Source: a virus. From it: DNA of 46,842 nt. Shown piece by piece: positions 1,179 to 25,914 of this stretch. The position numbers and the translations under genes are program-made. Below the pieces are notes generated by a model. The model saw only the letters and a list, made by a program, of their open reading frames with translations, did no database searches and had not been told where the DNA came from. Location: the IMG/VR virus record IMGVR_UViG_3300047378_000893, positions 1 to 46,842 of that record; one strand, 5' to 3'. Position 1 is the stretch's first letter. Each line of letters begins with the position of its first letter.

Positions 1179-1811
1179 TTATAATTTTTGAAAATAACCA
1201 CCAATATCAAAAGAAGTATTTGTGTTTATAGAACCCTTAGTTGATGGGATAAATTCTGTGGGGTTTACTATTCTAAAATCAACAGATACTCTAGTATCAT
1301 GTTCTATATTTGTTTTATTACCATGTATAAGATTTGCTCCATTAAATACAAGAACTTCACCATAACTTACATTATATGGTTTGAAATCATTTTTATCTTC
1401 TTCAGACTCAATCCATATAGTATTTGTATCATATGCATCAGTAAATGGTAACCAAATATTTATTTCACTCTTACCATGGTTATAATCCCTATCCCTATGC
1501 CATTCACCAACTGCTTGATTGTCTTTTAAATGAACTCTAAACGTTGGTATTTTTTGGTATATAATTTCATCCAATTCAAACTCATATTTAATAAAATTTT
1601 TTATAAATGTATTATATAGTTTTTGAAATCTATTTAAATCATCACGATAAAATCTTTTGTGCCAAGTAGTTGATTGGTCTTTTTCTCTTACAAGAGTATC
1701 ATATTTTTCAACTTCATGTAAGTTTTCAAGAGTATTTGTTTTTAGATTAGTTTTAACTATTTCTCTAAACGGATATAATGAAGTATCGTATTTTAACTTA
1801 TATGTTTTCAT
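1179..1811 (-). CDS. 2-oxoglutarate/Fe(II)-dependent oxygenase
   Basis: About 210 aa. The complete iron and cosubstrate set is visible: H105-R-D107 in WHRDRDY, the distal His at about 163 in NLIHGN, and Arg174 and Arg180 in DTRVSVDFR, one of which would bind 2-oxoglutarate. This is the double-stranded beta-helix signature of Fe(II)/2OG oxygenases, similar to the StrG-like enzymes seen in marine phages (family recalled, not searched). I chose the ATG at 1809-1811, which overlaps the TGA stop of the preceding gene as ATGA. The longer frame would need a TTG at 1820. Such enzymes hydroxylate proteins or small molecules. The neighbouring oxygenase and glycosyltransferase suggest a modification cassette. 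The substrate is unknown. Confidence 0.8.
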   Translation of the reverse strand: MKTYKLKYDTSLYPFREIVKTNLKTNTLENLHEVEKYDTLVREKDQSTTWHKRFYRDDLNRFQKLYNTFIKNFIKYEFELDEIIYQKIPTFRVHLKDNQAVGEWHRDRDYNHGKSEINIWLPFTDAYDTNTIWIESEEDKNDFKPYNVSYGEVLVFNGANLIHGNKTNIEHDTRVSVDFRIVNPTEFIPSTKGSINTNTSFDIGGYFQKL

Positions 1812-2578
1812 ATATTCCAATGTTTTTCTCTAAGAGAATATACATCGATTGGTTCTCGTTTCATATGCCCACCTGTTTCAAACTTTGATGATTGTAATGC
1901 ATATCCTGCTAAAAAGTTTCTTCTGAACCTATTTGATTCGTTTGGTTCTGAACCATGTACTGTGTGTGAATGAAGTAAAACCATTTCTCCCTTACGAGTA
2001 TATCCTTCAATCTTTTTAAAATCATGACCAATTGGTAATACACATGGTTTACCTCTCTCATTTGACCAGTTTTTTGGGTTTGTTTTTGCTCTCTCATCAT
2101 CAACTTCAATTGGAAGTATTGGTAATCGATGTGTACCCTCTAAATTCCAAACAGCACCATTTTCTTTATCATGATTATCCAAAGCTAGTGCAACATTAAC
2201 ATACTCATTATGTTTGCATTTTGTATAGAACGAGTTTTGATGCATATCCCTACCTAATTGACCAGGTGGTTTAAAATATGCCCAAGTCTGAGTACCACTT
2301 ACACTACCACCCATTAAAAATTCACAAGACTCTATTATTTTTGGATGTGAAAAAAGTTTTGCAAGTTTATCAGATAGTTTATGTGGATACATAAATGGGT
2401 CATACTCTCCCCATTCATTGCCAGTATCTTTATTGTAGAATCTATTTGTTCTAAGTTGTTCTAACTCAGTATTGATTTCTTCACATTCTTCTTCAGTAAG
2501 TAATTGTATTGTTGAGAATCCTCTGTACCTCCAATCGAAGGTAAGTTGTTGTTTCTCTTCATCAGTAAGATAACTCAT
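1808..2578 (-). CDS. Phytanoyl-CoA dioxygenase (PhyH)-like oxygenase
   Basis: A 256-aa protein of the PhyH branch of Fe(II)/2OG oxygenases. Visible landmarks are TWAYFKPPGQLGRDMHQNSFY (first metal motif region), NGAVWNLEGTHRLPILPIE and HSHTVHGSEPNESNRFRR, giving H113 and H208 as metal ligands and an Arg at 217-220 for 2-oxoglutarate. The usual second ligand of the HxD motif is Asn here (H113-Q-N115). It is therefore either a subfamily trait or a catalytically altered enzyme. It begins about 30 bases after the small gene at 2611, with an AGGTT sequence upstream of ATG, and its stop overlaps the start of the next oxygenase. Substrate unknown. A role in modifying fibre or baseplate proteins, or a metabolite, is inference. 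Confidence 0.8.
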   Translation of the reverse strand: MSYLTDEEKQQLTFDWRYRGFSTIQLLTEEECEEINTELEQLRTNRFYNKDTGNEWGEYDPFMYPHKLSDKLAKLFSHPKIIESCEFLMGGSVSGTQTWAYFKPPGQLGRDMHQNSFYTKCKHNEYVNVALALDNHDKENGAVWNLEGTHRLPILPIEVDDERAKTNPKNWSNERGKPCVLPIGHDFKKIEGYTRKGEMVLLHSHTVHGSEPNESNRFRRNFLAGYALQSSKFETGGHMKREPIDVYSLREKHWNI

Positions 2579-2997: not shown

Positions 2998-5519
2998 TAT
3001 TCTTCACCCCCTACCATTCTAAAATCACACTTTATATTTGTTGTCCAAGTCATACCACCCATTGTTTGACTAACTCCTGTAATTTGATAAAAACTAGGAG
3101 GTCCAAATTTAAATGGAGTTCCTTCGAATTGTATCATATCACCTACTTTAAATCCACTTAATCCCTGAATGGTAAAGTCTATACTCGCAAGACCTGGTAT
3201 TGGATTAACTCGTTTTGTATATTCTAAATCAACGCTTCCTTTTATACCCGCTTCTTCTTTTAAACCCCTATCTATTAACTCAACAGATTTAAGTGCTCCC
3301 ACATCACTCCATGTACCTACACATAATAATGATTCAATAACACCATTTGATTTTTTTGCAAGTTCTTTATCAGTTAAATTTTCTACTATATCTATTTTAC
3401 CTTTTCTATCTTGTACTCGTGAAAATACACCAGCTTTTTGAGCAAATAAAGCAAACGATTTAGCATTTGATGGTACTTCTTCTTTTTCTTGTTTTTCTTG
3501 AGTTGCTTCAGAATCACCTCCACTACCCACAGTTGCTCTATTTAATATAGTCCCAGCTTGATTTTCAAAACTATTTGGGTCTGAATAAACTCCTCCGTAA
3601 TGTATATAAGGAGTATCCCCACTACCATCAACTGTATTTGAAGATAGATTTTTTATTACAACACTAGATTGCATTGCTCCAGGTACACTCATTTTCCATG
3701 AAATGGATGTAAACGGAGAACGAACTCCCCTTGCTTCGTATGTTGCGATTCCTTCTACTGTTTCCTTTTCAATATGACCTCTGAAATTTATATCTTCAAA
3801 TGCTAAAATATTTGGTCCTTTATCATCATTTTGTTTAGGTCCTTCTCTTACTTGAAAATTCCATAATCCATTAACTGCACCACTCATACCATTTAATAAT
3901 TCAAACATAACATCGATTGAATTTAAATTCTTCTTATCAATACATTGACAGAAGAAATCAAAGTTGATGTATAAATCATTTAACCATCCCCAAAATCCAG
4001 CCTTCTCCTTAGTTGCCTCTATTGTTTCATCACAATCATAATTTAATACAGTTTCATCTAAATCATATGTACATGGAAATGCAAAAGGAACAGGTCTACT
4101 CTGACCAGTTGATGGGTCATTTGCCGAACCATTCTTTTCTGCTCTTTCATTACCAGAAGGTGCTTCTTCTACTAATGGATGTAGGTTTGAAAGATTTTTC
4201 TCATTATCGAGTTCTTCAAAGTTTATAAATTTTACTGGCTCTGCGTTATCAGAATCAGTTAATGCTTCCTTTAAACCAAAACTAGGAGCAGTTGTATTTG
4301 GAATATATAATACCGAGGAATCCGTACTCCACATATGTGGAAATCCTTTAATTACAGTATTACTAGTATCTATTGTTAATAGTTGACTTTTTACATCTTT
4401 ACAATCTGTATCTTCTTGATTTAAATCAACTACATAATCATTTAAAATAGCAACCGCTAATTCAAATCTAATAAATCTTTGATTTGAAAACATATTTGTA
4501 TCACTTGGGATTGCTAATTTATCTCCACTTTTATTTCTAATAGTTGCACCCTTTGTAAGTGTTTTTTGTAAATAATCTCTTACATTCTCATCAAAATTAA
4601 CATAATTACCAGGATATGCCCACTCTATTCCATTTTTATCAGCTCCCTTTACCCATGCTCTAATATTTTTTGTTTGTTTTTGTTCTGGCAATGCATTAAA
4701 CATTTGTTTGAATAACGCACTTCCTGGTGTACTTTTACCGATTTTCTCAGGTTCAAATGGTGCAGGATTATTATCATCAGATTCGTTAGTTCTGTTTCCA
4801 CCAGTTTGTACTTGCATATATTCTGCTACTTGACCAGTACCTGATACTTGTACTTCTATATCATAGGTTTCACCTTCACCAAAATTTACTCCTCCACCTG
4901 ATACAATACCCAATGATGCATCATATTGGTACTTTGAGTCTTTTCTTTTTTCTTTAATATGAGCCCAATTAGAATATGCTACTACATCACATACATCAAA
5001 CGCACCCCCATTTCCAACTCTTTGTGAAAATGAATCATTAACGTTCCATCCCCATTCAAGAAGAACATGAAATCCTGGTTCTAAGAAATATTTAGCTACC
5101 TCATCAGTTTGTTCTTTAGTAAAACATTTAATTACAAATTTAGTTATCTTAAGAGCTCCTGCTTGTCTTTCTTCAACACTAAATGATGTTACAACGGGAG
5201 ATGGTCTCAATCCTCTACCTGTTACACCAACAGGAGTTTTCATATCCATTTCATAACCAAGTATACCTGGTTTATCTAAATTACCATATGAGTTTTCAAA
5301 ACGTTCTTGTGGATTTGAACCACCATTATGAATACTTTGCATTACTAAACCACCAGGACCATCATTATCAGCTGATTTACCAGTTGAAATAATGCGTATC
5401 CAAGTAGATAATCCACTAACACCACCCTCACTCCATGGTTTGTTTGTGTTTTCAGCTCTACTATCTAGTATCTCTCGTAGTTCGGGATATAAATTTGAAT
5501 ATTTTGGATATGTTCCCAT
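2997..5519 (-). CDS. Baseplate hub-like structural protein
   Basis: An 840-aa protein placed where contractile-tailed phages encode the baseplate hub, that is after tape measure, tube-junction and LysM proteins. The N-terminal third has an MDMKTPVGVTGRG segment and then PSPVVTSFSVEER with a following beta-rich stretch ending LLEWGWN, around residues 90-155. The C-terminal end (SGFKVGDMIQFEGTPF, then YQITGVSQTMGGMTW) resembles the beta-barrel modules of T4 gp27 or Mu gp44-type hubs that bind the spike. There are several Cys residues near the middle (CTYD, YDCDETIE, FFCQCIDKK). Its length far exceeds T4 gp27 (about 390 aa), so extra domains are inserted or fused. The hub role is inferred from position and the C-terminal pattern. 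It starts 3 bases after the gp53-like gene. Confidence 0.6.
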   Translation of the reverse strand: MGTYPKYSNLYPELREILDSRAENTNKPWSEGGVSGLSTWIRIISTGKSADNDGPGGLVMQSIHNGGSNPQERFENSYGNLDKPGILGYEMDMKTPVGVTGRGLRPSPVVTSFSVEERQAGALKITKFVIKCFTKEQTDEVAKYFLEPGFHVLLEWGWNVNDSFSQRVGNGGAFDVCDVVAYSNWAHIKEKRKDSKYQYDASLGIVSGGGVNFGEGETYDIEVQVSGTGQVAEYMQVQTGGNRTNESDDNNPAPFEPEKIGKSTPGSALFKQMFNALPEQKQTKNIRAWVKGADKNGIEWAYPGNYVNFDENVRDYLQKTLTKGATIRNKSGDKLAIPSDTNMFSNQRFIRFELAVAILNDYVVDLNQEDTDCKDVKSQLLTIDTSNTVIKGFPHMWSTDSSVLYIPNTTAPSFGLKEALTDSDNAEPVKFINFEELDNEKNLSNLHPLVEEAPSGNERAEKNGSANDPSTGQSRPVPFAFPCTYDLDETVLNYDCDETIEATKEKAGFWGWLNDLYINFDFFCQCIDKKNLNSIDVMFELLNGMSGAVNGLWNFQVREGPKQNDDKGPNILAFEDINFRGHIEKETVEGIATYEARGVRSPFTSISWKMSVPGAMQSSVVIKNLSSNTVDGSGDTPYIHYGGVYSDPNSFENQAGTILNRATVGSGGDSEATQEKQEKEEVPSNAKSFALFAQKAGVFSRVQDRKGKIDIVENLTDKELAKKSNGVIESLLCVGTWSDVGALKSVELIDRGLKEEAGIKGSVDLEYTKRVNPIPGLASIDFTIQGLSGFKVGDMIQFEGTPFKFGPPSFYQITGVSQTMGGMTWTTNIKCDFRMVGGEE

Positions 5520-5823: not shown

Positions 5824-7236
5824 TTAAAGTCCAGTTCTTGGGGATTCGTTAACAGGTCGAGTTAGGGATTTCACCGCTGAACCTGCTATTTCACCATTAA
5901 AGTCATATAATTGTAATTCTGCTCCAGGTGTTTCTAATAATTTTATAGTTGCTGAAACATCTATAAATTTGGGTAAACGTAATCCATCTTTATACACTTC
6001 CCAAGTACCCATATCTGGCATTGTGTATGTAAGTGATTCTATAAATCCATGCCTTTCCTTATATAAATCTCCTAATTGGAATATTATAAAAGGAGGATTT
6101 ACAATACCTCCATCAGTAATTTTAGGATATGTTTTTGATGTAAGATATTTTAATCTATCCCAACACATAATTAATTCTGGTTGATTCATACAATATAAGT
6201 TTAGATTAAATGTTATTGCCCTTTCTACACCATCATATGTGTAATAATTGTATGGATTACCTATAAATTTATTTCCACTCCATGCTGGTGTTGATGATTC
6301 TGATAATCCGGTTACAGTAGCTCTAAAGAATTGTCTATCAGATTCTTCTTCCTCAACTCCTTGTATCCAAAATGGTATTTCTGGAGAATCTGTGGTTGGG
6401 ACTGTAGTTGGTACTTGGTAAAGAGAAGTAGCAGATGTATTAGAACCAATTGTATCTGTTGGTGCATTCATACCAATACCTAATCTAGCATTTACATCAC
6501 CGGTATCAAAGTCACTTTTAAGACCTGGAGTTTTTGAATAATTACCTTCTGTTGCATCTTCATTAACATCCTTTGGGTTATCAGAATAACTTCTATATAT
6601 TGGTATTGAACCTAAATTATTAGGAAGTTTTCCAGGTTTACCAAATATTGCTCCTCGTAATGCATCTTTTCCTGCATTAAGAGCTCCACCAACTGCTTGT
6701 TTTGCCATTGTTGATGGGTTACCACCAGATGCTTTTAATAAAGCTCCTAGTCCTGTTCCGTTTTTACCCCAAGTTTCTCTTGTATAGGCTTGATTTGATG
6801 GAACATCTGCTATGGCTTTTGGTTTACCTGCACCTCGACTTTTTCCAACTTCATCACCCTTTTCAAGACCCATTCTCGATGGTAGTAATGTTACTGGTAT
6901 ACCAAGAAATGAATTTACAGCATCTCTTGCCTTACCAATGGCTTTGTTTAATCCTAAACCCCCACCTCCATCAGTTAATAACCCCTCGGTCATTGCATCC
7001 TTATCTGATGTAGTTCTTTGTGCTATACGAACTGCTTGATTACCATATATTAGAGGATTGTTTATATCAACTAAGGATTTTACTCTAATACCAGTTGTTT
7101 CTTGTTCAACATAGTTTGAAATAGATGCACCTACACCTCCTCTATTTTCTTGAGATTTAGAATCCACCAATCCATCTGCAGTTGTACCTGAAAATGTTAG
7201 TTCTTTGTTTTTAAATAATTCTAATATTGTTGGCAT
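5824..7236 (-). CDS. Candidate tail tube-baseplate junction protein
   Basis: A 470-aa protein between the tape measure and the gp53-like gene. The N-terminal half (to about residue 270) is Gly/Ser/Asn rich and looks poorly ordered. The C-terminal half (about 285-450) is a compact domain with FFRATVTGLSESSTP, AITFNLNLYCMNQP and GFIESLTYTMPDMGTWE segments. That alternation of beta strands resembles tube-initiator proteins (T4 gp48/gp54, or Mu gp43-like). The position supports the role but the sequence evidence is modest. The start is ATG with AAGGGAAA about 7 bases upstream, 12 bases after the tape measure stop. Confidence 0.5.
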   Translation of the reverse strand: MPTILELFKNKELTFSGTTADGLVDSKSQENRGGVGASISNYVEQETTGIRVKSLVDINNPLIYGNQAVRIAQRTTSDKDAMTEGLLTDGGGGLGLNKAIGKARDAVNSFLGIPVTLLPSRMGLEKGDEVGKSRGAGKPKAIADVPSNQAYTRETWGKNGTGLGALLKASGGNPSTMAKQAVGGALNAGKDALRGAIFGKPGKLPNNLGSIPIYRSYSDNPKDVNEDATEGNYSKTPGLKSDFDTGDVNARLGIGMNAPTDTIGSNTSATSLYQVPTTVPTTDSPEIPFWIQGVEEEESDRQFFRATVTGLSESSTPAWSGNKFIGNPYNYYTYDGVERAITFNLNLYCMNQPELIMCWDRLKYLTSKTYPKITDGGIVNPPFIIFQLGDLYKERHGFIESLTYTMPDMGTWEVYKDGLRLPKFIDVSATIKLLETPGAELQLYDFNGEIAGSAVKSLTRPVNESPRTGL

Positions 7237-10837: not shown

Positions 10838-10866
10838 AAAAAAAGTGAGGAATTTTACTTCCTCAC
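10838..10866 (-). terminator. Intrinsic terminator after the tail chaperone genes
   Basis: On the minus strand, an 8-bp stem GTGAGGAA / TTCCTCAC with a 6-base loop is followed by seven T. The stem begins inside the last codons of the gene at 10855-11097. It separates the chaperone unit from the tape measure unit. Confidence 0.88.
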
Positions 10867-11097
10867 ATTTACATTTGGTCCTTGTGGTGATGAACTCTGA
10901 GATTTATTACTATTCTTCATTTGTTTAGCTTCTTCCTCTTTTGCCTTAGAAAGCTCATTATAATAGAAATTTCTTATGTGTATTGGTAACCTATAAACTC
11001 CTTCTTGAGTAAATCCATTTCCATAGTAACATAATTCAAAAATCTGTTTATGAAGAATCGAAGAGTAATTAATCGGTAGGCCAAAAAAACCCCACAC
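10855..11097 (-). CDS. Downstream part of tail assembly chaperone (GT-like), probably frameshift-expressed
   Basis: This 80-aa frame has an N-terminal FFGLPINYSSILHKQIFELC segment, a YYGNGFTQEGVYRLPIHIRNF core and a charged tail. That pattern is typical of the small frame following the tail chaperone in T4-like marine phages. As a free gene it would start at GTG 11095-11097, with no Shine-Dalgarno sequence, inside the end of the upstream gene. The 29-base overlap contains TTT TTT TGG in the upstream frame. A +1 slip on the T7 run moves ribosomes exactly into this frame (GTG TGG GGT TTT TTT GGC), yielding a fusion of about 322 aa. Position between tail tube and tape measure matches the classical G/GT arrangement. 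Expression as an independent protein remains possible. Confidence 0.65.
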   Translation of the reverse strand: MWGFFGLPINYSSILHKQIFELCYYGNGFTQEGVYRLPIHIRNFYYNELSKAKEEEAKQMKNSNKSQSSSPQGPNVNVRK

Positions 11098-11824
11098 CCA
11101 TTGGAATGGGTTTCACCTCTCTCTCACCAGAATTTGGGTTAATCCAATCGAATTCCATATTAATATCAGGTTGATGTTCCCTAACAGTTTCTCGGAATGC
11201 TCTTGTATCTCTCGTTAAGAAAGCATTATTTATAAATTTATTGATTGTTTTAACATCAGTTTCTCCATCAACTGAAGTAATCATATATCGATACCTCGTT
11301 GTTAATTCAGAGGATGCACCATCTTTGTTTAGTCTTGCAATTGCTCTAATATCAGCTTCTACTGCCTTTTCATCTCCATGTGTAAGTAATTTCCATTCAA
11401 GATTTACACCAGTTGAAGTAGTAAATGTATAATTATTTTCTACATTTATATTATCAAGATTTGTTTCTTTAGTTTGTACTTTTGATAAATCAACTTCTGT
11501 TTCATGTGCTTCACCCATTTCATCTTGAATTTGAACCCTATATTTAGAACCATATCCTAAGATACGAGCTGCTAACATTATAGCGTTTTTATCCCCTAGT
11601 ATAATATCATCGATATTAACCTTCTTATCTACTATAATTGATTCAAATAACTTATCAAGTACCACCCCCTTTCGAATAAGATTCTGTGAAGCAAGAATTT
11701 CTTCTTCTTTCGCAGTCATGTATTTAATTTCAAGTTCTCCTGAAGAAAGGGGATTATCTTCTGGGTAACATTTACCTTGTGATGGTAATGATATCACTTC
11801 GGTAGGAAAATCGTAATTTGCCAT
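11069..11824 (-). CDS. Tail assembly chaperone / gp26-like protein
   Basis: A 251-aa protein. Landmarks are LPSQGKCYPEDNPLSSGELE near residues 13-32, then IKYMTAKEEEILASQNLIRKG, the conserved start of T4 gp26-like baseplate or tail assembly proteins in T4-like phages. An AARILGYGSKY segment lies near residue 90. T4 gp26 is about 208 aa. Located between tail tube and tape measure, it is the likely upstream (G-type) tail chaperone that coats the tape measure during assembly, and its 3' end overlaps the next frame at a slippery T7. It has its own promoter-like motif 26 bases before ATG. Confidence 0.65.
   Translation of the reverse strand: MANYDFPTEVISLPSQGKCYPEDNPLSSGELEIKYMTAKEEEILASQNLIRKGVVLDKLFESIIVDKKVNIDDIILGDKNAIMLAARILGYGSKYRVQIQDEMGEAHETEVDLSKVQTKETNLDNINVENNYTFTTSTGVNLEWKLLTHGDEKAVEADIRAIARLNKDGASSELTTRYRYMITSVDGETDVKTINKFINNAFLTRDTRAFRETVREHQPDINMEFDWINPNSGEREVKPIPMGVGFFWPTD
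11081..11089 (-). promoter_or_regulatory. Putative programmed +1 frameshift (or slippage) site
   Basis: On the minus strand GGG TTT TTT TGG is read in the frame of the 251-aa gene, and the run of seven T allows a Phe-tRNA to re-pair one base forward and continue as GGC CTA CCG in the downstream frame. RNA polymerase slippage on T7 could give the same result. Confidence 0.55.
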
Positions 11825-15319: not shown

Positions 15320-16627
15320 TTATGCAGTAAATGTTAGAGTTTTGTAACCAGATTTTAAACCATGGTCAATTGCTCTTACTCTTGCATAATATGTAGTACC
15401 ACTTGTAGTTGCATTTACAACATTTAGTGAAGTACCACTATATTCGGTAAAATTAAATACCATAGTACCAGTGAAACCAGAGTTTGTATTTACTTGTACA
15501 TCATACGCAGTAATACCACCTGTACCACTTTCACTACCCTCAGTCCAATTTAACATTTTTTCTGTACTATTATCGATACTATATGTTAATGTAGCTGGAG
15601 TTCCAGGATTACCTAAATCTGAATGAGAATTTCCTCCCTTGTTGTGAGATATAAATCCATTAGCTAAATAGGTATCAGGTGAACTTACATCAAGTGATAC
15701 TATTTCAGTAATTTCATTGTTTACATTTACACTTGTTATTTCTACTTCAGAACCATCATGTCTTATTAATAAATCACCTTCTGTTATAGTACCAAGTGTT
15801 TTAAATAATAAATTATTATTTCTTTTAACTAACATTGGGTGTTCTGATGTACCTACTATCGTTCCTTCGTTAATATCATACGTTCTTTCAGAAAATGAGA
15901 AAACTACATCTTGTACAATTACTTCTGTTTCATCGATGGTATCATCACCATCATATTGATATTCTAATAAGTTTACATCATCATTATATTCTGGTAAACT
16001 ATATCCTTTTAATCTATCACCCTCTTCTAAGTCTCCAATTTCAACATCAGTTCCATCACTCATTTTAACCAAAGTATCGGATACTAAACATAATGCAGTT
16101 GAATTTCCATCATAAGAATCTACTGAGTAAACAGTTTTAGTTCTTGCACTACCGTAATTACCTGCATGATGATTAAACCCATCCGCAAAAGTTACTGATA
16201 ATGTATGTGATACAGTACCCAATAAATCTGTTTGTGAATTTGTACCTTGTGGATTCATTCCACCAACTGTAATTACACCAGTATAATCTTGATTTGAATT
16301 GATTGATAAAAATCCTGATGTTTGTGGTGCTGAATTATATCCTGGACTTACTGCCCAAGTAAAGTTTTGATATCTACCTTTTATTTGTCCAAAGTTAGAA
16401 CCCTCTCCACCAAATGCTAATGTATATGTTTCGTTTGTAGATTCAACAGCATAAGTATATCCAGATAATGAACCAACTGAATCTATTCCAAATGAAGATA
16501 GTGAAATATTATCACCAGCTGATGGCGAACCTTTTATACCACCCAATGATACATTTGAACCTTCGGTATTACCAGTTGCTAATGCTAAATTATTTAAACT
16601 AAGTGTTTCTTCTGCTGAAATTGCCAT
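15320..16627 (-). CDS. Tail/fibre protein with an internal Hint (intein-like) domain and FN3-like C-terminus
   Basis: A 435-aa protein in three parts. Residues 1-179 are a Gly/Ser-rich structural domain. Residues 180-329 are a Hint domain: Cys180 in CLVSDTLVKMSDGTDVEIGD (block A), T260-S-E-H263 (block B TxxH) and a C-terminal ISHN ending at Asn329. Residues from about 340 are a fibronectin-III-like domain (ATLTYSIDN, YDVQVNTNSGF, YYARVRAID). The residue after HN is Lys330, followed by GG, not Cys/Ser/Thr, so canonical intein splicing is not expected. This resembles bacterial intein-like (BIL) and phage HNKGG Hint domains, which can cleave themselves or splice inefficiently. AGGAAAG precedes the ATG. 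Its placement next to the fibre genes suggests a tail decoration or adhesin. Confidence 0.8.
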   Translation of the reverse strand: MAISAEETLSLNNLALATGNTEGSNVSLGGIKGSPSAGDNISLSSFGIDSVGSLSGYTYAVESTNETYTLAFGGEGSNFGQIKGRYQNFTWAVSPGYNSAPQTSGFLSINSNQDYTGVITVGGMNPQGTNSQTDLLGTVSHTLSVTFADGFNHHAGNYGSARTKTVYSVDSYDGNSTALCLVSDTLVKMSDGTDVEIGDLEEGDRLKGYSLPEYNDDVNLLEYQYDGDDTIDETEVIVQDVVFSFSERTYDINEGTIVGTSEHPMLVKRNNNLLFKTLGTITEGDLLIRHDGSEVEITSVNVNNEITEIVSLDVSSPDTYLANGFISHNKGGNSHSDLGNPGTPATLTYSIDNSTEKMLNWTEGSESGTGGITAYDVQVNTNSGFTGTMVFNFTEYSGTSLNVVNATTSGTTYYARVRAIDHGLKSGYKTLTFTA

Positions 16628-18807: not shown

Positions 18808-21800
18808 TTACTTTATCTTAGATTTTAAATCATTTATTTCTTTTTGCTGTTCTTTAATAGCCTCTATTAAGAGACCAGTAAGTTTAGCATAATCTACTCC
18901 TTTGTATCCATTATCTCTATCAGTTACCAATTCTGGTAATACTTTTTCAACATCTTGTGCAATCACACCAACATTTGGTAATGATTGTTGTAACTCATCT
19001 GCATTATCATTCCAATCCCAAGTAACACCTTTAAGTGATTGTACTTTTTCTATTGGATTAGAAATAAGTTCAATATTATCTTTTAATCTTTCATCTGAAG
19101 AAGCATATGCAACAACATCACCAGCAACATTTAATGCTCCACCTATACCTACACCACCAACTACTACAAGAGCTCCAACATCAGTTGCATTTGTTGCGGT
19201 AGTGTTTGTGATTGTTATAACACCACTTGCAGAATCATCAGCATTTGAACGAAGGAAGTTACTCGAAGTTAAACCATCAAGTTTATCTGCGTTTAGATTA
19301 GTAACTTTTGTTGTTGAGGTTACTGCGAATGGTGCAGTACCAGTTGCAACTGAAGAAACTAATTGTGAACTAAATGTTTTAGCTCCACTAAATGTTTGTG
19401 TTCCACTTAGGTGTGCAGTATCTGAATCTAAGTAAGCTGATGCGATTGCAGTACCATTCCATGTACCACTATCGATTGTACCAACAGTTGTGATACCTAA
19501 CCCATTTATACTTGTTAGTGTTTCATCACCGGTATTAGTTCCACTCTGTCCACTTAAGTATGTAGTTGAAATTGCACTACCATTCCAAACACCACTTGAT
19601 ATTGTTCCAACCTCTGTGATATCTAAAGCATTTATACTTGATTTAGTTTCATCACCGGTATTAGTTCCACTTTGTCCACTTAAGTATGTAGTTGATATTG
19701 CTGAACCTTGCCATACACCACTTGATATTGTTCCAACCTCTGTGATATCTAAAGCATTTATACTTGATTTAGTTTCATCACCAGTGTTAGTTCCACTATT
19801 CGTACCAGTAATATCGGATGTCATTGCAACAGTACCCGTCTTATTTGGTAGAGTATATGTCACATCTGCACCTGCAACTACTGATAAAAGAGTAGCATCA
19901 TGTCCATCTGCGGTAGTACCTTCAAATACAACACCATTAGATGTTGAAATTGTTGTTACGTTGTTTGTAGTTGTTGTTCCAGTTACTACTAAATCACCAG
20001 GAATAGTTACTGTATCTGTTGAATCACCAATTGATACTGCGTTTGAACCAAAACCTCCGGCTAATCTAGTTTTTAAATTTGCAACAGAAACATCATCATT
20101 ATCGTTAGCAGTCATATCATTAACTACTACACTAACTTTTCCGTTGGTATCATCATATGTAGTTGTTACTCTAGTATCAGTATTAGAAGTAAACATTCCA
20201 CCTACTATATCTTGAACTGCTTCTGTTGATAGATTTGTATTAGTAGTATAAGAAGGTAATCCAAATGTACCATCATGTTTTAAGAAGTGTCCATCTGTTC
20301 CAGTTGCTGGTACGAACTTTTCATTACCAGTTCCAATAGAACTTTGAATTTCTGAATCTGTTCTGTTCTGGTCTGCAGATGCTTCAATTCCATCTAATTT
20401 ATCAAACATCTCATCTGACATCAATCCCCAATTATCCGTATCTGCTAATGTTAATGCTACATTATTACCATCTGATGAATTAATTGAGAATCCAGTACCA
20501 CTAACTGTCTTAGATAAATTAGTTGATACGTTATGGTTAATATCACTTACTTTAGCAGTATTCGCTGCTATCTCATCAAATAAAGTTGGAGATAATAAAC
20601 CAGATACACTTGTTGTACCTATTGGGATTACTGCATTAGTACCATCTGAAGAAACTATTGTTCTAGCCCCAGTCGTACCTGTGATACTTAAATCAGTTGA
20701 TACGTTATGGTTAATATCACTTACTTTTAAAGTATTCGCTGTTATCTCATCAAATTTTGCTTTTGTTAATAAACCAGCTCTAGTCGTAGATGCCGATGCT
20801 AATGTTGCATTAGTACCATCACTTGAATTTACGTCAACAGTTGTTTCAGTTGCAGTTCCTTCTGATAAATCGGTTGATACGTTATGATTAATATCACTTA
20901 CTTTAGCAGTATTGGCATCAATCTCATCAAATAAACCAGGTGATAATAAACCAGATACAGATGTTGTTGCAAGTGGAATAACAGCATTAGTACCATCTGA
21001 AGAAACTATTGTTCTAGCTCCAGTTGTACCCGTAATACTTAAATCGGTTGATACGTTGTGATTAATATCACTTACTTTTAAAGTATTTGCTACAATTTCA
21101 TCAAATTTTGCTTTTGTTAATAAACCAGCTCTTGTGGTTGAAGCAGATACTAAAGTAGCATTACTACCATCACTTGAATTTACATCAACAGTTGTTGTAG
21201 TTGAAGTTCCTTCACTAAGGTTAGTTGATACGTTGTGATTGATATCACTTACTTTAGCAGTATTGGCAGCAACTGCGGAGTTATTACCAACTTCTGTATC
21301 GAAATCCGATATATCAGATGCCGCTAAAGAACCACTAAATACTGCATTATCATTTAAAACAGTTAGTACATCAGAATCTCCATATTGTGCAGTACCAGTA
21401 ATTGTGATAACATTTCCACTTTCAGAAATTGTAATACCAGTTCCACCACTTAAAGTAACATCATCATTTGTGGAATCTGAACCAGCTAATCTGATTATAG
21501 ATGTATTGGATGCACCTGCTTGTACATTTAAATCATATGATGTATCATCTGTTGATGGTAGTGTTACAGTTTTAACATTTAACGCAGTAACGTGTCCTCT
21601 AGCCGAAGTTGTAACTGAGTCAATTGCAGTAAATGTTCCTCCATATGAAGGTGAACTAGTTGATGTTGTATCAGTTCTTGAAATATCACTATGATTTATT
21701 GTAATAGTTTCATTTGAACTTTGATTCGTAGTAAAATTACCACCAGTTCCTAAATCAGTACCTGCAGTAAGTGTAATTGTTGCATTACTTGCTGCTGATG

Positions 21801-24800
21801 GAATTGTTGGTTGATTTTGTATTGAGTTATAATTAACTTGTGATGAACCACTAATTACAGTATCTGCATCTAATTTAAGTTTTACTCTTGCATCTGTATA
21901 ATAAAGATTTGTTGAACCTTCGGTTATTTCATCTGTATTATCTTGTGATTGTGCTTTAGAATCTACATATGCTTTTACAGATTGTTGAGTTGGTACTTTG
22001 GTTGCTGAATTGGATGAGAAGTTATCTTCATCAACAGATACTAAATCTAATATTTGTGATGAACCACTAATTACAGTATCTGCATCTAATTTAAGTTTTA
22101 CAAGTGCATCTGTATATCCTACTTTAGAAGTATTTGCTACAATTTCATCAAATTTTGCTTTTGTTAATACACCTGCTCTACTAGTAGATGCAGATGCTAA
22201 TGTTGCATTATTACCATCACTTGAATTTACATCAACAGTTGTTTCAGTTGTAGTACCTTCTGATAAATTAGTTGATACGTTATGATTAACATCGGTTGAT
22301 TTAGCAGTATTCGCTGCTATCTCATCAAATAAAGTTGGAGATAATAAACCAGATACGCTTGTTGTAGCGATTGGAATAACGGCGTTGTTACCATCTGAAG
22401 AAACTATTGTTCTAGCTCCAGTTGTACCTGTGATACTTAAATCAGTTGATACGTTAGTTACCTTATCGTTGTTATCTGAGATATTACTAATTTCGGTAGA
22501 ACTAATAGTTCTAGTATTTCCTGCGAGTGCAGTTGAACTTGTACTTCCTAATGTTAATAAAGTTGGTAAGTTTGATATATCCGAAGAATAATCCACTTGT
22601 CCTAATGTTATTGCCTGTCCACTAATTGATAAATAATCATGTGAGGTTGTTACAAGTGTTACATCTGTTGAATTATCAGTTCCAGCTGCATCTACACCTA
22701 AGTTAGTTCTAGCAGTTCCAGTATTTGCTAAATCAGATAAGTTACTCCCTTTTGATAATTTTGTTCCTACGGTTGTTACTAAACTTGCAAGTGAACCAGA
22801 ATCTGCTGCTAATGAAGCAGATAGTTCACCTAGTGTATCTAATGTTGAACCAGCATTTCCTATTATTGTATCTACTCTATCTTGTACGAACGCAGTTGTT
22901 GCTATTTTAGTAGAATCATCTGTACCACCTTGAGTTGGTGCAGTTGGGTCATTTGTTAATGCAGCTCCTGCAAACATCGTTGCTTTTGATTCGTTTGTTA
23001 CATTTGCTAAACCAACATCACCAGCAGTAGTTGCTTGTGCTCTTAAATTTGCGTAAGTTCCACTTTGTGAGAACGCTGCAACATCAGAAATATCTGATGA
23101 GGATATACCTAAGAATGATTTTATTTCTGAAGCAGAACCACTTGATACCGCATCTGCATCTAATTTTGTTTTTACTCTTGCATCTGTATAACCAACTTTA
23201 CTAGAGTTAGTTGAGATTGATGTTATTTCACCAGAAGAAATAGTTCTAGTATTTCCAGCAAGTGCAGTTTCACTACTCGTACCTAATTGTAAAGTTGTTA
23301 CTGAACCACCAAGTGAGATAGCAGAACCATCTATTGAAATTGAATTTGAACCACTTAATAAAGTACTTCCATTAGTAATTTGTGATGAACCACTTATTAC
23401 TGTATTATCATTTAAAACAGTTATTACATTAGCATCAGTATAGTGAGATAAATCAGAAATCTGAGATTCTGTTATTGTTATTTGTGATGAACCACTTATT
23501 ACAGTTTCTGCATTTAATTTTGTTTTTACTTTTGCATCACTATATTGATTAATACTAGAGTAGTTTGTAGTTGAAGCAACATCTACTTGAGATGAACCAC
23601 TTATTACAGTTTCTGCATTTAATTTTGTTTTTACTCTTGCATCTGTGTAATATAAGTTACTACTTCCTTCAGATACATCATCAGTATTTCCACTTAATTC
23701 ACTTAAAGCATCTTTAGTATCAATTTGTGCATCTACATATGCTTTAACAGATTGTTGAGATGGAAATTTAGTTGCTGAGTTAGAATTCATGTTATCTTCA
23801 TCAACACCAACTAAACTAATAATTTGTGATGAACCACTAACAACGTTTTCAGTATTTATTTTTGCTTTTACGTTTGAATCGAAATTGATTATTGAATCTG
23901 CATTTACTTGTCCCGAACCACTAATTACAGTTTCTGCATTTAATTTTGTTTTAACAAGTGCATCCGTATATCCAACTTTGGCGTTGTTTGTAGTAATGTT
24001 TCCTGCTTGAGTAGAAGTAATTGTTGTTGGAGTATTTGATATATCCGTACTATAATCTACTTGTCCTACTGATATTTCTTGTCCACTAATAGAAATGTAA
24101 TCAAGAGTACTAGATAAAGTAACATCTGTTGAATTATCAGTTCCAGCGGCATCAACTCCAAGTGCGGTTCTTGCATTTTCAGCTGAAGTTGCACCTGTAC
24201 CACCACTTGAGAGTGGAATTGTACCACCAGTTATTGCTTGTCCACTTATTGTTAAGTAATTAGTATTTCCTAAAGTTACATCTGTTGAATTATCAGTTCC
24301 AGCGGCATCAACTCCGATTGTAGTTCTAACTGCTCCTGCATCTGCATCATCTAATATTGTTTGTGCAAATGTTGAAGCGATTTGGTCTGAACCAGATACT
24401 ATTCCATCACCTACCTTAAATGATACGGATTCATCTGAACTTTGGTTTAGTGTTATTGTACCACCACCACTTAATCCATCACCTGCAGTAAATGTTATTG
24501 TATTATTGTTAATACCCAACTGAGCTGATGATGAAAACGCTCCTTCTGCATTTAATTTTGTTTTTACTCTTGCATCTGTGTAATATAAGTTACTTGAATG
24601 TTCCGAAACATCGGCAGTATCAAATCCTGTCTTAATAGCATCATTTAATACTACTTGAGAAGAACCACTAATTACAGTTTCTGCATTTAATTTTGTTTTT
24701 ACATCAGAATCAGTATATTTGTCTAAATCACTAATTTGTGATTCTGTTACTGTTACTTGAGATGAACCACTTATAGTTCCACTTGGTAGTTTTGATACAA

Positions 24801-25914
24801 GGTTTGAAGTTGTAAGAACTTCTGATTCACTTCCTAGTTTACCAGCTTTCCAATAATCTTTACCATCAGTAGCATCCCAAACAAATGAACCACTTGTTTG
24901 TGATACACCAGTTCCATCTGTTACATAGATACCACTAGTTGTTTGTGAACCACCATAGTTAAGTTCTAATATATTATCACCAATGTTTACAGTAGTTGAA
25001 TCAATTGTAGTTGTATTACCTTGAACAGATAAATTACCAGTTAGTGTTAAATTTGCAAATTGAACATTATCACCAGTTTGTAATCCGGTATCAACATCAG
25101 TATTTGCCCCATTTATTGTAGCTCTAACAGTACCTTGACTTGGTGAACTAAATGTTGAACCACTAATTACACCATCTGTATTTAATTTTGTTTTTACTCT
25201 TGCATCTGTATAATAAAGGTTTGTATTTTCAGATAATTGTGAAGTATTGAATCCACTAAGTGATATTTGTGAAGAACCCGATATTACACCATCTCCCTCT
25301 GTATTTAAGTAGCGTGTATCAAATGTAGTTGTTAATTGAGATGAACCAGATATTACTCCATCTTGGTTCATTTTTAATTTTGCTCTATCTACTGTATAAT
25401 ATAAATTAGAGCCTTCGGTTAGATTGGTAGTTGTTTTACTTGCTAATCTTGTATCGAAATCAGAATCATTATATTTGTCTAAATCACTAATTTGTGATTC
25501 TGTTATTGTTACTTGAGATGAACCACTAATTACAGTTTCTGCATTTAACTTAGCTTTTACATTTGTATCAAAGTTTGTGATTGTATCAGCATTCACTTGA
25601 ATCGATGATGAAAATACACTATCTCCGTTAATTTCTAAGAAGGTTGTAGCTAATTGTGAAGAACCACTAATTACACCATCTGCATTTAATTTTGTTTTTA
25701 CTCGTGTATCTGTATAGTATAAGTTTGAAGAACCTTCAGATAGGTTATCCGTATCAAAACCATTTAAACTTACTTGAGATGAACCCGATACCACTCCCGA
25801 TGGCAATAAACTTATTATTTGTCCAGAACCAGAAACAGAACCATTATTTGCAGTAAAAGTTGCATTTGATGATAGGGTTAATGAACCTGAAACGATGGGG
25901 TTATGTAAAATCAT
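18808..25914 (-). CDS. Giant tail fibre with C-terminal S74 self-cleaving chaperone
   Basis: A 2368-aa protein. From the start it consists of short repeats built on VISGSSQV and SNLYYTDARVKTKLNAE. Around residues 960-1040 it carries motifs common in phage tail fibres (DDSTKIATTAFVQDRV, NLSDLANTGTARTNLGVDAA). Two longer modules beginning HNVSTDLS alternate around residues 1560-1800, and there is a 42-aa tandem repeat around residues 2040-2140. The last 96 residues are a peptidase S74 intramolecular chaperone: SDERLKDN (Ser2273, Lys2278 dyad), GVIAQDVEKVLPELV and a C-terminal helix. In this family the chaperone drives trimerisation and is then cut off at the Ser. There is no attachment module at the N-terminus, so it may be a distal fibre segment joined to the product of the gene just upstream (3-base gap, AAGGAA upstream of ATG). 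No enzymatic domain seen. Confidence 0.88.
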   Translation of the reverse strand: MILHNPIVSGSLTLSSNATFTANNGSVSGSGQIISLLPSGVVSGSSQVSLNGFDTDNLSEGSSNLYYTDTRVKTKLNADGVISGSSQLATTFLEINGDSVFSSSIQVNADTITNFDTNVKAKLNAETVISGSSQVTITESQISDLDKYNDSDFDTRLASKTTTNLTEGSNLYYTVDRAKLKMNQDGVISGSSQLTTTFDTRYLNTEGDGVISGSSQISLSGFNTSQLSENTNLYYTDARVKTKLNTDGVISGSTFSSPSQGTVRATINGANTDVDTGLQTGDNVQFANLTLTGNLSVQGNTTTIDSTTVNIGDNILELNYGGSQTTSGIYVTDGTGVSQTSGSFVWDATDGKDYWKAGKLGSESEVLTTSNLVSKLPSGTISGSSQVTVTESQISDLDKYTDSDVKTKLNAETVISGSSQVVLNDAIKTGFDTADVSEHSSNLYYTDARVKTKLNAEGAFSSSAQLGINNNTITFTAGDGLSGGGTITLNQSSDESVSFKVGDGIVSGSDQIASTFAQTILDDADAGAVRTTIGVDAAGTDNSTDVTLGNTNYLTISGQAITGGTIPLSSGGTGATSAENARTALGVDAAGTDNSTDVTLSSTLDYISISGQEISVGQVDYSTDISNTPTTITSTQAGNITTNNAKVGYTDALVKTKLNAETVISGSGQVNADSIINFDSNVKAKINTENVVSGSSQIISLVGVDEDNMNSNSATKFPSQQSVKAYVDAQIDTKDALSELSGNTDDVSEGSSNLYYTDARVKTKLNAETVISGSSQVDVASTTNYSSINQYSDAKVKTKLNAETVISGSSQITITESQISDLSHYTDANVITVLNDNTVISGSSQITNGSTLLSGSNSISIDGSAISLGGSVTTLQLGTSSETALAGNTRTISSGEITSISTNSSKVGYTDARVKTKLDADAVSSGSASEIKSFLGISSSDISDVAAFSQSGTYANLRAQATTAGDVGLANVTNESKATMFAGAALTNDPTAPTQGGTDDSTKIATTAFVQDRVDTIIGNAGSTLDTLGELSASLAADSGSLASLVTTVGTKLSKGSNLSDLANTGTARTNLGVDAAGTDNSTDVTLVTTSHDYLSISGQAITLGQVDYSSDISNLPTLLTLGSTSSTALAGNTRTISSTEISNISDNNDKVTNVSTDLSITGTTGARTIVSSDGNNAVIPIATTSVSGLLSPTLFDEIAANTAKSTDVNHNVSTNLSEGTTTETTVDVNSSDGNNATLASASTSRAGVLTKAKFDEIVANTSKVGYTDALVKLKLDADTVISGSSQILDLVSVDEDNFSSNSATKVPTQQSVKAYVDSKAQSQDNTDEITEGSTNLYYTDARVKLKLDADTVISGSSQVNYNSIQNQPTIPSAASNATITLTAGTDLGTGGNFTTNQSSNETITINHSDISRTDTTSTSSPSYGGTFTAIDSVTTSARGHVTALNVKTVTLPSTDDTSYDLNVQAGASNTSIIRLAGSDSTNDDVTLSGGTGITISESGNVITITGTAQYGDSDVLTVLNDNAVFSGSLAASDISDFDTEVGNNSAVAANTAKVSDINHNVSTNLSEGTSTTTTVDVNSSDGSNATLVSASTTRAGLLTKAKFDEIVANTLKVSDINHNVSTDLSITGTTGARTIVSSDGTNAVIPLATTSVSGLLSPGLFDEIDANTAKVSDINHNVSTDLSEGTATETTVDVNSSDGTNATLASASTTRAGLLTKAKFDEITANTLKVSDINHNVSTDLSITGTTGARTIVSSDGTNAVIPIGTTSVSGLLSPTLFDEIAANTAKVSDINHNVSTNLSKTVSGTGFSINSSDGNNVALTLADTDNWGLMSDEMFDKLDGIEASADQNRTDSEIQSSIGTGNEKFVPATGTDGHFLKHDGTFGLPSYTTNTNLSTEAVQDIVGGMFTSNTDTRVTTTYDDTNGKVSVVVNDMTANDNDDVSVANLKTRLAGGFGSNAVSIGDSTDTVTIPGDLVVTGTTTTNNVTTISTSNGVVFEGTTADGHDATLLSVVAGADVTYTLPNKTGTVAMTSDITGTNSGTNTGDETKSSINALDITEVGTISSGVWQGSAISTTYLSGQSGTNTGDETKSSINALDITEVGTISSGVWNGSAISTTYLSGQSGTNTGDETLTSINGLGITTVGTIDSGTWNGTAIASAYLDSDTAHLSGTQTFSGAKTFSSQLVSSVATGTAPFAVTSTTKVTNLNADKLDGLTSSNFLRSNADDSASGVITITNTTATNATDVGALVVVGGVGIGGALNVAGDVVAYASSDERLKDNIELISNPIEKVQSLKGVTWDWNDNADELQQSLPNVGVIAQDVEKVLPELVTDRDNGYKGVDYAKLTGLLIEAIKEQQKEINDLKSKIK
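19081..19098 (-). other. S74 autocleavage motif of the giant fibre
   Basis: These bases encode S-D-E-R-L-K. By family precedent the chain is cut just before this Ser, releasing the last 96 residues. Confidence 0.7.
19495..19790 (-). repeat. 126-bp tandem repeat in the giant fibre gene
   Basis: A 36-base segment starting at 19621 recurs at 19747, an exact 126-bp (42-aa) period. Two nearly identical protein units containing ITEVGTISSGVW and a third, diverged unit are encoded, which indicates recent in-frame duplication. Confidence 0.8.
20510..21260 (-). repeat. Alternating module array in the giant fibre gene
   Basis: Two modules of about 50 aa, each opening with DINHNVSTDLS or a close variant, alternate here: one continues ITGTTGARTIVSSDG, the other EGT-TTVDVNSSDG. 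Another copy lies at about 22140-22450. Confidence 0.75.

Follow-up and report, generated by a model that had tools for sequence, protein, structure and literature searches.

A predicted programmed +1 ribosomal frameshift at Phe codons in a T4 gp26/gp51-family tail assembly chaperone gene

A 46.8-kb virus fragment (IMG/VR record IMGVR_UViG_3300047378_000893; the whole 46,842-nt stretch is referred to here as the window, and positions are those of the whole stretch) carries a tail assembly chaperone gene whose 251-aa product is very probably extended to a 322-aa long form by a programmed +1 ribosomal frameshift at a pair of Phe codons. The +1 arrangement, the slip site, and the extension are all conserved among relatives. 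Other T4-like phages shift in the -1 direction at the same Phe-Phe codons, and we consider it likely that the direction of frameshifting has switched in evolution while the product has stayed the same.

Results

Organization of the locus

The short form is encoded on the minus strand at 11069..11824, and its reading frame ends ATG GGT GTG GGG TTT TTT TGG CCT ACC GAT TAA. Overlapping this end in the +1 frame is an 80-aa ORF (11097-10855, minus strand) that reads GTG TGG GGT TTT TTT GGC CTA CCG ATT AAT TAC; an initial sequence-only reading of this DNA had described the same sequence, frames, and ORF lengths (251 and 80 aa), and all are confirmed. The sole possible start of the 80-aa ORF is the GTG at 11097, and inspection of the window reveals no properly spaced SD for it, as that reading had also claimed; an AGAGAGG lies ~18-24 nt upstream. 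Translation of the whole recoded gene (10855..11824, minus strand) with one four-base step yields the predicted 322-aa fusion, reproducing the length of about 322 aa proposed earlier. The 75-aa +1-frame extension (GLPINYSS..., 10858..11082, minus strand) is a gp51-C-terminus-like domain, recognized by a profile match and by homologous +1 extensions in relatives. The slip site, G TTT TTT TGG CCT (0-frame codons, the G being the last base of GGG), occupies 11078..11090 on the minus strand, and its two Phe codons TTT TTT (11084..11089, minus strand) are the most likely P-site slip codons, with the second (11086-11084) favoured. The 71 codons that are open downstream in the +1 frame have P ~0.0015 by shuffling. 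Runs of seven or more Ts are not rare in the window (15, together with seven such runs of A), and the evidence is therefore carried by the conserved context rather than by the run itself.

The gene has the genomic position expected of a tail assembly chaperone. A gp19-like tail tube gene (12437-11949) lies upstream, as does that for a contractile sheath, and the tape measure gene (10530-7249) lies downstream; the placement between tail tube and tape measure given in the sequence-only reading holds, with one extra 97-aa ORF (10837-10544) before the tape measure. Elsewhere in the window, a 435-aa structural-looking protein (15320-16627, minus strand) has, by eye, an intein/Hint-like stretch (CLVSDTLVKMSDG...GFISHNKGG) and no Pfam match, and a 2368-aa repetitive fibre-like protein (18808-25914, minus strand) has an end that by eye resembles an S74-type chaperone domain (SSDERLKDNIE...). 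Close to one edge of the window, next to further ORFs that look non-structural, a Phytanoyl-CoA dioxygenase-like protein is encoded (PhyH, E=1e-18; 1808-2578, minus strand).

Family identity and likely hosts

A PHROGs profile search assigns the 251-aa protein to phrog_150 (baseplate hub) with E=5e-9. A Pfam search gave it no PF12322 match of its own; its relatives L083, L084, and SP-15 match PF12322 (T4_baseplate) with E values of 4e-15 to 1e-28. T4 gp26 matches the phrog_150 profile as far as position 235 of 282, and T4 gp51 matches it almost end to end, which fits the published view of a short and long gene pair; as relayed by the citing paper PMC10885494, T4-like phages that lack frameshifting carry separate short and long chaperone genes. 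For the AlphaFold model of the short form (pLDDT 93), Foldseek matches among viral proteins include T4-like hub assembly proteins and, with E=3e-17 and a TM of 0.85, the baseplate hub subunit of SP-15. A search of the PDB with the short form returned no significant match, the HK97 gp13 chaperone (2OB9) appearing at E=2.5 only, with a TM by target of 0.44. In a profile comparison, the +1 extension matches the -1 extensions and the T4 gp51 C-terminus with a probability of 93 and E=3e-7; nothing in PHROGs matched the window extension alone, and its predicted fold gave no significant match in BFVD. The phrog_150 match, the fold, and the T4 gp26/gp51 profile comparison bear out the tail assembly chaperone identity and support the assignment of the locus to one gene of the T4 gp26/gp51 family in a T4-superfamily myophage.

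We found relatives of this chaperone in the cultured Flavobacterium phage immuto and in contigs that had been binned into genomes of Saprospiraceae and Flavobacteriaceae. At least some members of the +1 clade thus likely infect Bacteroidota, as the window phage probably does too; the clade also includes a Microcystis phage.

Conservation of the +1 arrangement

Junctions with a determinable frame numbered 262 (a first set of 181 and a later batch of 81) and came from IMG/VR, GTDB contigs, and named phages; further distant named phages were considered beside them. Of these 262 junctions, 259 have the homologous extension in +1 (177/181 in the first set and 81/82 in the later one), and the arrangement is kept in hundreds of divergent relatives. 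In 95 of the 259, the interval from the preceding +1-frame stop to 45 nt beyond the first base of the slip site lacks any ATG, GTG, or TTG that could start the extension. Both counts lend comparative support to the +1 direction and the fusion that had been proposed from the window.

Three junctions (L096, L101, and L106) are not +1. L096 and L101 are closely related and encode the extension in an ATG-started ORF in the -1 frame (~3175-3600 and ~3170-3511, respectively); they are the only cases of a downstream gene with its own start, which the sequence-only reading had named as evidence against a fusion. Their slip sites are decayed (TTC TTG TAT CCT; TTC CTT TGG CCA) and in the tree they are nested within the +1 clade, and the separate-ORF state looks like a secondary loss of the +1 shift. 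Phage immuto (L081, MW353176.1) is a +1 member with the site AGC TTT CTT TGG CCT; its chaperone extension at 6704-6943 goes unrecognized in the annotation, which has only a 36-aa hypothetical protein there.

Codon usage and constraint at the slip site

Synonymous conservation was tested on 70 representatives, and the same-codon rates at Phe1, Phe2, Trp/Tyr, and Pro are 0.94, 1.00, 1.00, and 0.97 versus expected values of 0.63, 0.63, 0.62, and 0.37; these sequences are related, and the rates are not those of independent trials. The constraint sets in abruptly: the codon just before the Phe pair has a rate of 0.72 versus 0.44 expected, and there is no excess further upstream. The pattern persists at 60% identity clustering. 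The second Phe codon is never TTC (0/172, against a background of 25%), the Tyr codon is always TAC (24/24, against 25%), and the Pro codon is CCT in 176/178 (against 30%), with a conserved Pro upstream using all four codons. This bias at Phe, Tyr, and Pro fits a shift at the Phe codons, with +1-frame coding from there onward.

All 259 sites contain a YTT codon followed by T or C. Both codons of the pair qualify in 240, only the second in 16 (mostly TTC TTT), and only the first in three (TTT CTA); with both kinds of exception in existence, the slip cannot always fall on the same codon of the pair. Variants include TTC TTT TGG, CTT TTT TGG, TTT CTT TGG, TTT CTA TGG, and TTT CTA TTC, and the Streptococcus phage GXN1 has TTT CGT. 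A run of seven Ts is present in 164/259, and in 91/259 the longest run is of only three or four. Of the two features whose conservation the sequence-only reading had proposed to check, the +1 relation is conserved among homologues and the T run is not.

Possible stimulators

We found no conserved RNA structure upstream or downstream of the site and no stem common to relatives, and local RNA folds are hardly more stable than those obtained by synonymous resampling. There is also no SD-like element at the correct spacing near the slip site in relatives. Across the family, GC3 in the 36 nt before the site is 0.42-0.61 versus 0.22-0.29 further upstream, GGAG-like 4-mers occur ~30 nt before the site at many times background, and Glu codons in the region before the site are GAG in 228 cases and GAA in 155, against 1030 to 3782 gene-wide. 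The corresponding segment of the window (11090..11126, minus strand), which includes a GAGAGG word, is a possible stimulator on the basis of this composition. An SD role for the GGAG-like words was considered and rejected, ~30 nt upstream being too far for known SD spacings.

Direction of the shift in T4-like relatives

S-SM2, C48C1, Melnitz, KVP40, XacN1, and the L106 group have a -1-frame extension, and in them the same Phe-Phe codons lie within a heptamer T_TTT_TTC or T_TTT_TTT. The distant group of L106 and L188-L193 is an example: its site reads GAT TTT TTC TCA, which places a -1 heptamer on the homologous Phe-Phe codons, and its extension is in the -1 frame. None of the +1-clade sites with TTT TTT has a T immediately before it (0/165, against a third-position background of 38%); in the window this base is G, the site does not form the canonical -1 heptamer X_XXY_YYZ, and the extension is not in the -1 frame. 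A T precedes the site in 25 +1 loci, all of which have TTC TTT or TTT CTT and are not -1 heptamers. The missing T before TTT TTT looks like avoidance of -1 slipping, but much the same absence would be seen if longer T runs were disfavoured for other reasons.

A tree places the window clade and the SP-15/LIS04/GXN1 group on the +1 side, and the Kyanoviridae/KVP40/T4 side is -1 or split; the deep branches of the tree are long, which makes any order of events read from it tentative. A very large clade of the T4 superfamily, partly linked to Bacteroidota, probably uses +1 rather than -1 at the same Phe-Phe codons, with a few bases seeming to set the direction (T_TTT_TTY for -1; YTT_Y without a T before TTT TTT for +1) and with a switch of direction in evolution that left the product unchanged. 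PMC12846349 credits Vladimirov, Gautam & Davidson (2022, Virology 566:9) with reporting poly-T -1 signals in the chaperone genes of T4-like phages. Neither the +1 clade nor the switch of direction appears to be described in the literature searched, in which the coverage of Vladimirov et al. 2022 is second-hand.

Discussion

A model for the two forms

We infer the occurrence of the shift, its exact codon and efficiency, and the roles of the proteins as follows. Most ribosomes would terminate at the TAA, giving the 251-aa short form, and a minority would shift +1 near the gene end. The P-site Phe tRNA on TTT (in some relatives, Leu tRNA on CTT) would re-pair one base ahead on TTT or TTC, passing over the initial T of the TGG or TAC codon that follows, and reading would continue as ...FF-GLPINY... 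into the 322-aa long form. If the two proteins act as lambda G/GT and T4 gp26/gp51 do, the short form would coat the tape measure and the extension would recruit the tail tube.

Alternatives to a shift at the Phe codons

The improbable but closest competitor places the +1 shift two codons later, at the conserved Pro codon CCT, where tRNA-Pro would re-pair on CTN and the T run would merely encode Phe-Phe. CCT is the most biased codon of the site (176/178), GXN1 has CCC C, and the cps site of phage PSA, ACA_CCC_(UCC_GAA) (PMC5009743), is close to the UAC CCU UCC GAA of some relatives, and for a time we favoured this explanation. We dropped it on the synonymous pattern at Phe and Tyr, since a slip at CCT leaves the missing TTC at the second Phe and the preference for TAC over TAT unaccounted for, and on the sites of three relatives: L065 has CCA G, where re-pairing of tRNA-Pro is impossible, and yet keeps the +1 relation, and neither SP-15 nor LIS04 has a Pro codon in the corresponding place. 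Moreover, the T of CCT doubles as the middle base of a conserved +1-frame Leu codon. The variation of the T run among relatives makes it very improbable that transcriptional slippage on the T7 run, raised in the sequence-only reading, generates mRNAs lacking one base and hence the fusion without any ribosomal shift. The run is there in the window and, at seven Ts, in most relatives, but the 91 with a longest run of three or four (TTC TTT TGG, TTT CTT TGG) are still +1, and the exceptional sites keep tRNA re-pairing and not the run; with the run variable and YTT_Y universal, slippage by the polymerase fails as the shared mechanism.

Two further possibilities are, in our estimation, scarcely credible, and to about the same degree. 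A -2 ribosomal shift would enter the same frame and add one residue (GFFFGL), phage Mu provides a precedent for -2 frameshifting (PMC5009743), and the T7 run of the window would allow -2 re-pairing; in the TTC TTT TGG relatives, however, tRNA-Phe would land on TCT, and all sites fit +1. Alternatively, the 80-aa ORF could be an independent gene, translated through coupling or from its GTG at 11097 without any fusion being made. Such a start exists in the window, and L096 and L101 have ATG-started extensions, but the GTG has no SD, a possible start codon is absent from 95/259 relatives, and the synonymous constraint on the slip codons would be unexplained. A programmed +1 shift at the Phe codons accordingly stands as our preferred explanation.

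Significance

These phages provide a natural series in which the same two proteins are made by a -1 shift, by a +1 shift, from separate genes (T4), or from an apparent separate start (L096/L101). With the shift at homologous codons, the long-standing question of what decides the direction of slippage should be testable by one or two base changes. Programmed +1 sites on sense codons are known in only small number from bacteria, and a family of hundreds is a useful data set; annotation is also corrected, as the long form is missing from many such phages or is labelled as a stray hypothetical protein.

Comparison with known systems

The locus shares with frameshifted chaperone genes of the lambda G/GT type its overlapping ORFs at the expected place and a conserved slip site and frame relation. 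Like G/GT, it lies between tail tube and tape measure and is predicted to give a short and an extended form, fused near the end of the short gene. Lambda uses a -1 shift and another slippery site, GGGAAAG, and no sequence similarity between G/GT and the window was detected. The +1 site of prfB (RF2), CUU_UGA, is similar in that a P-site YUU can re-pair on UUU, and many relatives have CTT TGG C; in contrast to prfB, the A-site codon in the window family is a sense codon, TGG or TAC, rather than a stop, and there is no SD at the prfB spacing.

Among viruses, +1 shifts have been proposed in the tail chaperone genes of HF1-group haloviruses and HSTV-2, at TTT-CGC in the HF1 group (PMC7230728, PMC5009743), recalling the TTT CGT of GXN1; these are archaeal viruses, and the likeness to the T4 gp26 family noted here is one of slip site. 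The Listeria phages PSA, A118, and A500 also have +1 shifts in structural genes, at CCC_U, and a CCU is conserved just downstream of the slip site in the window family, but the Listeria genes encode capsid and tail shaft proteins, and there the slip is on a Pro codon. The closest counterparts are the T4-like chaperones, both T4 gp26/gp51 and those with -1 shifts, which have the same family (phrog_150/PF12322), the same short and long forms, and the same extension as the window clade, with the -1 users shifting at the same Phe-Phe codons. T4 encodes the two forms in separate genes; cyanophages, KVP40, and others combine T_TTT_TTY with a -1 extension, and the window clade combines YTT_Y with a +1 extension.
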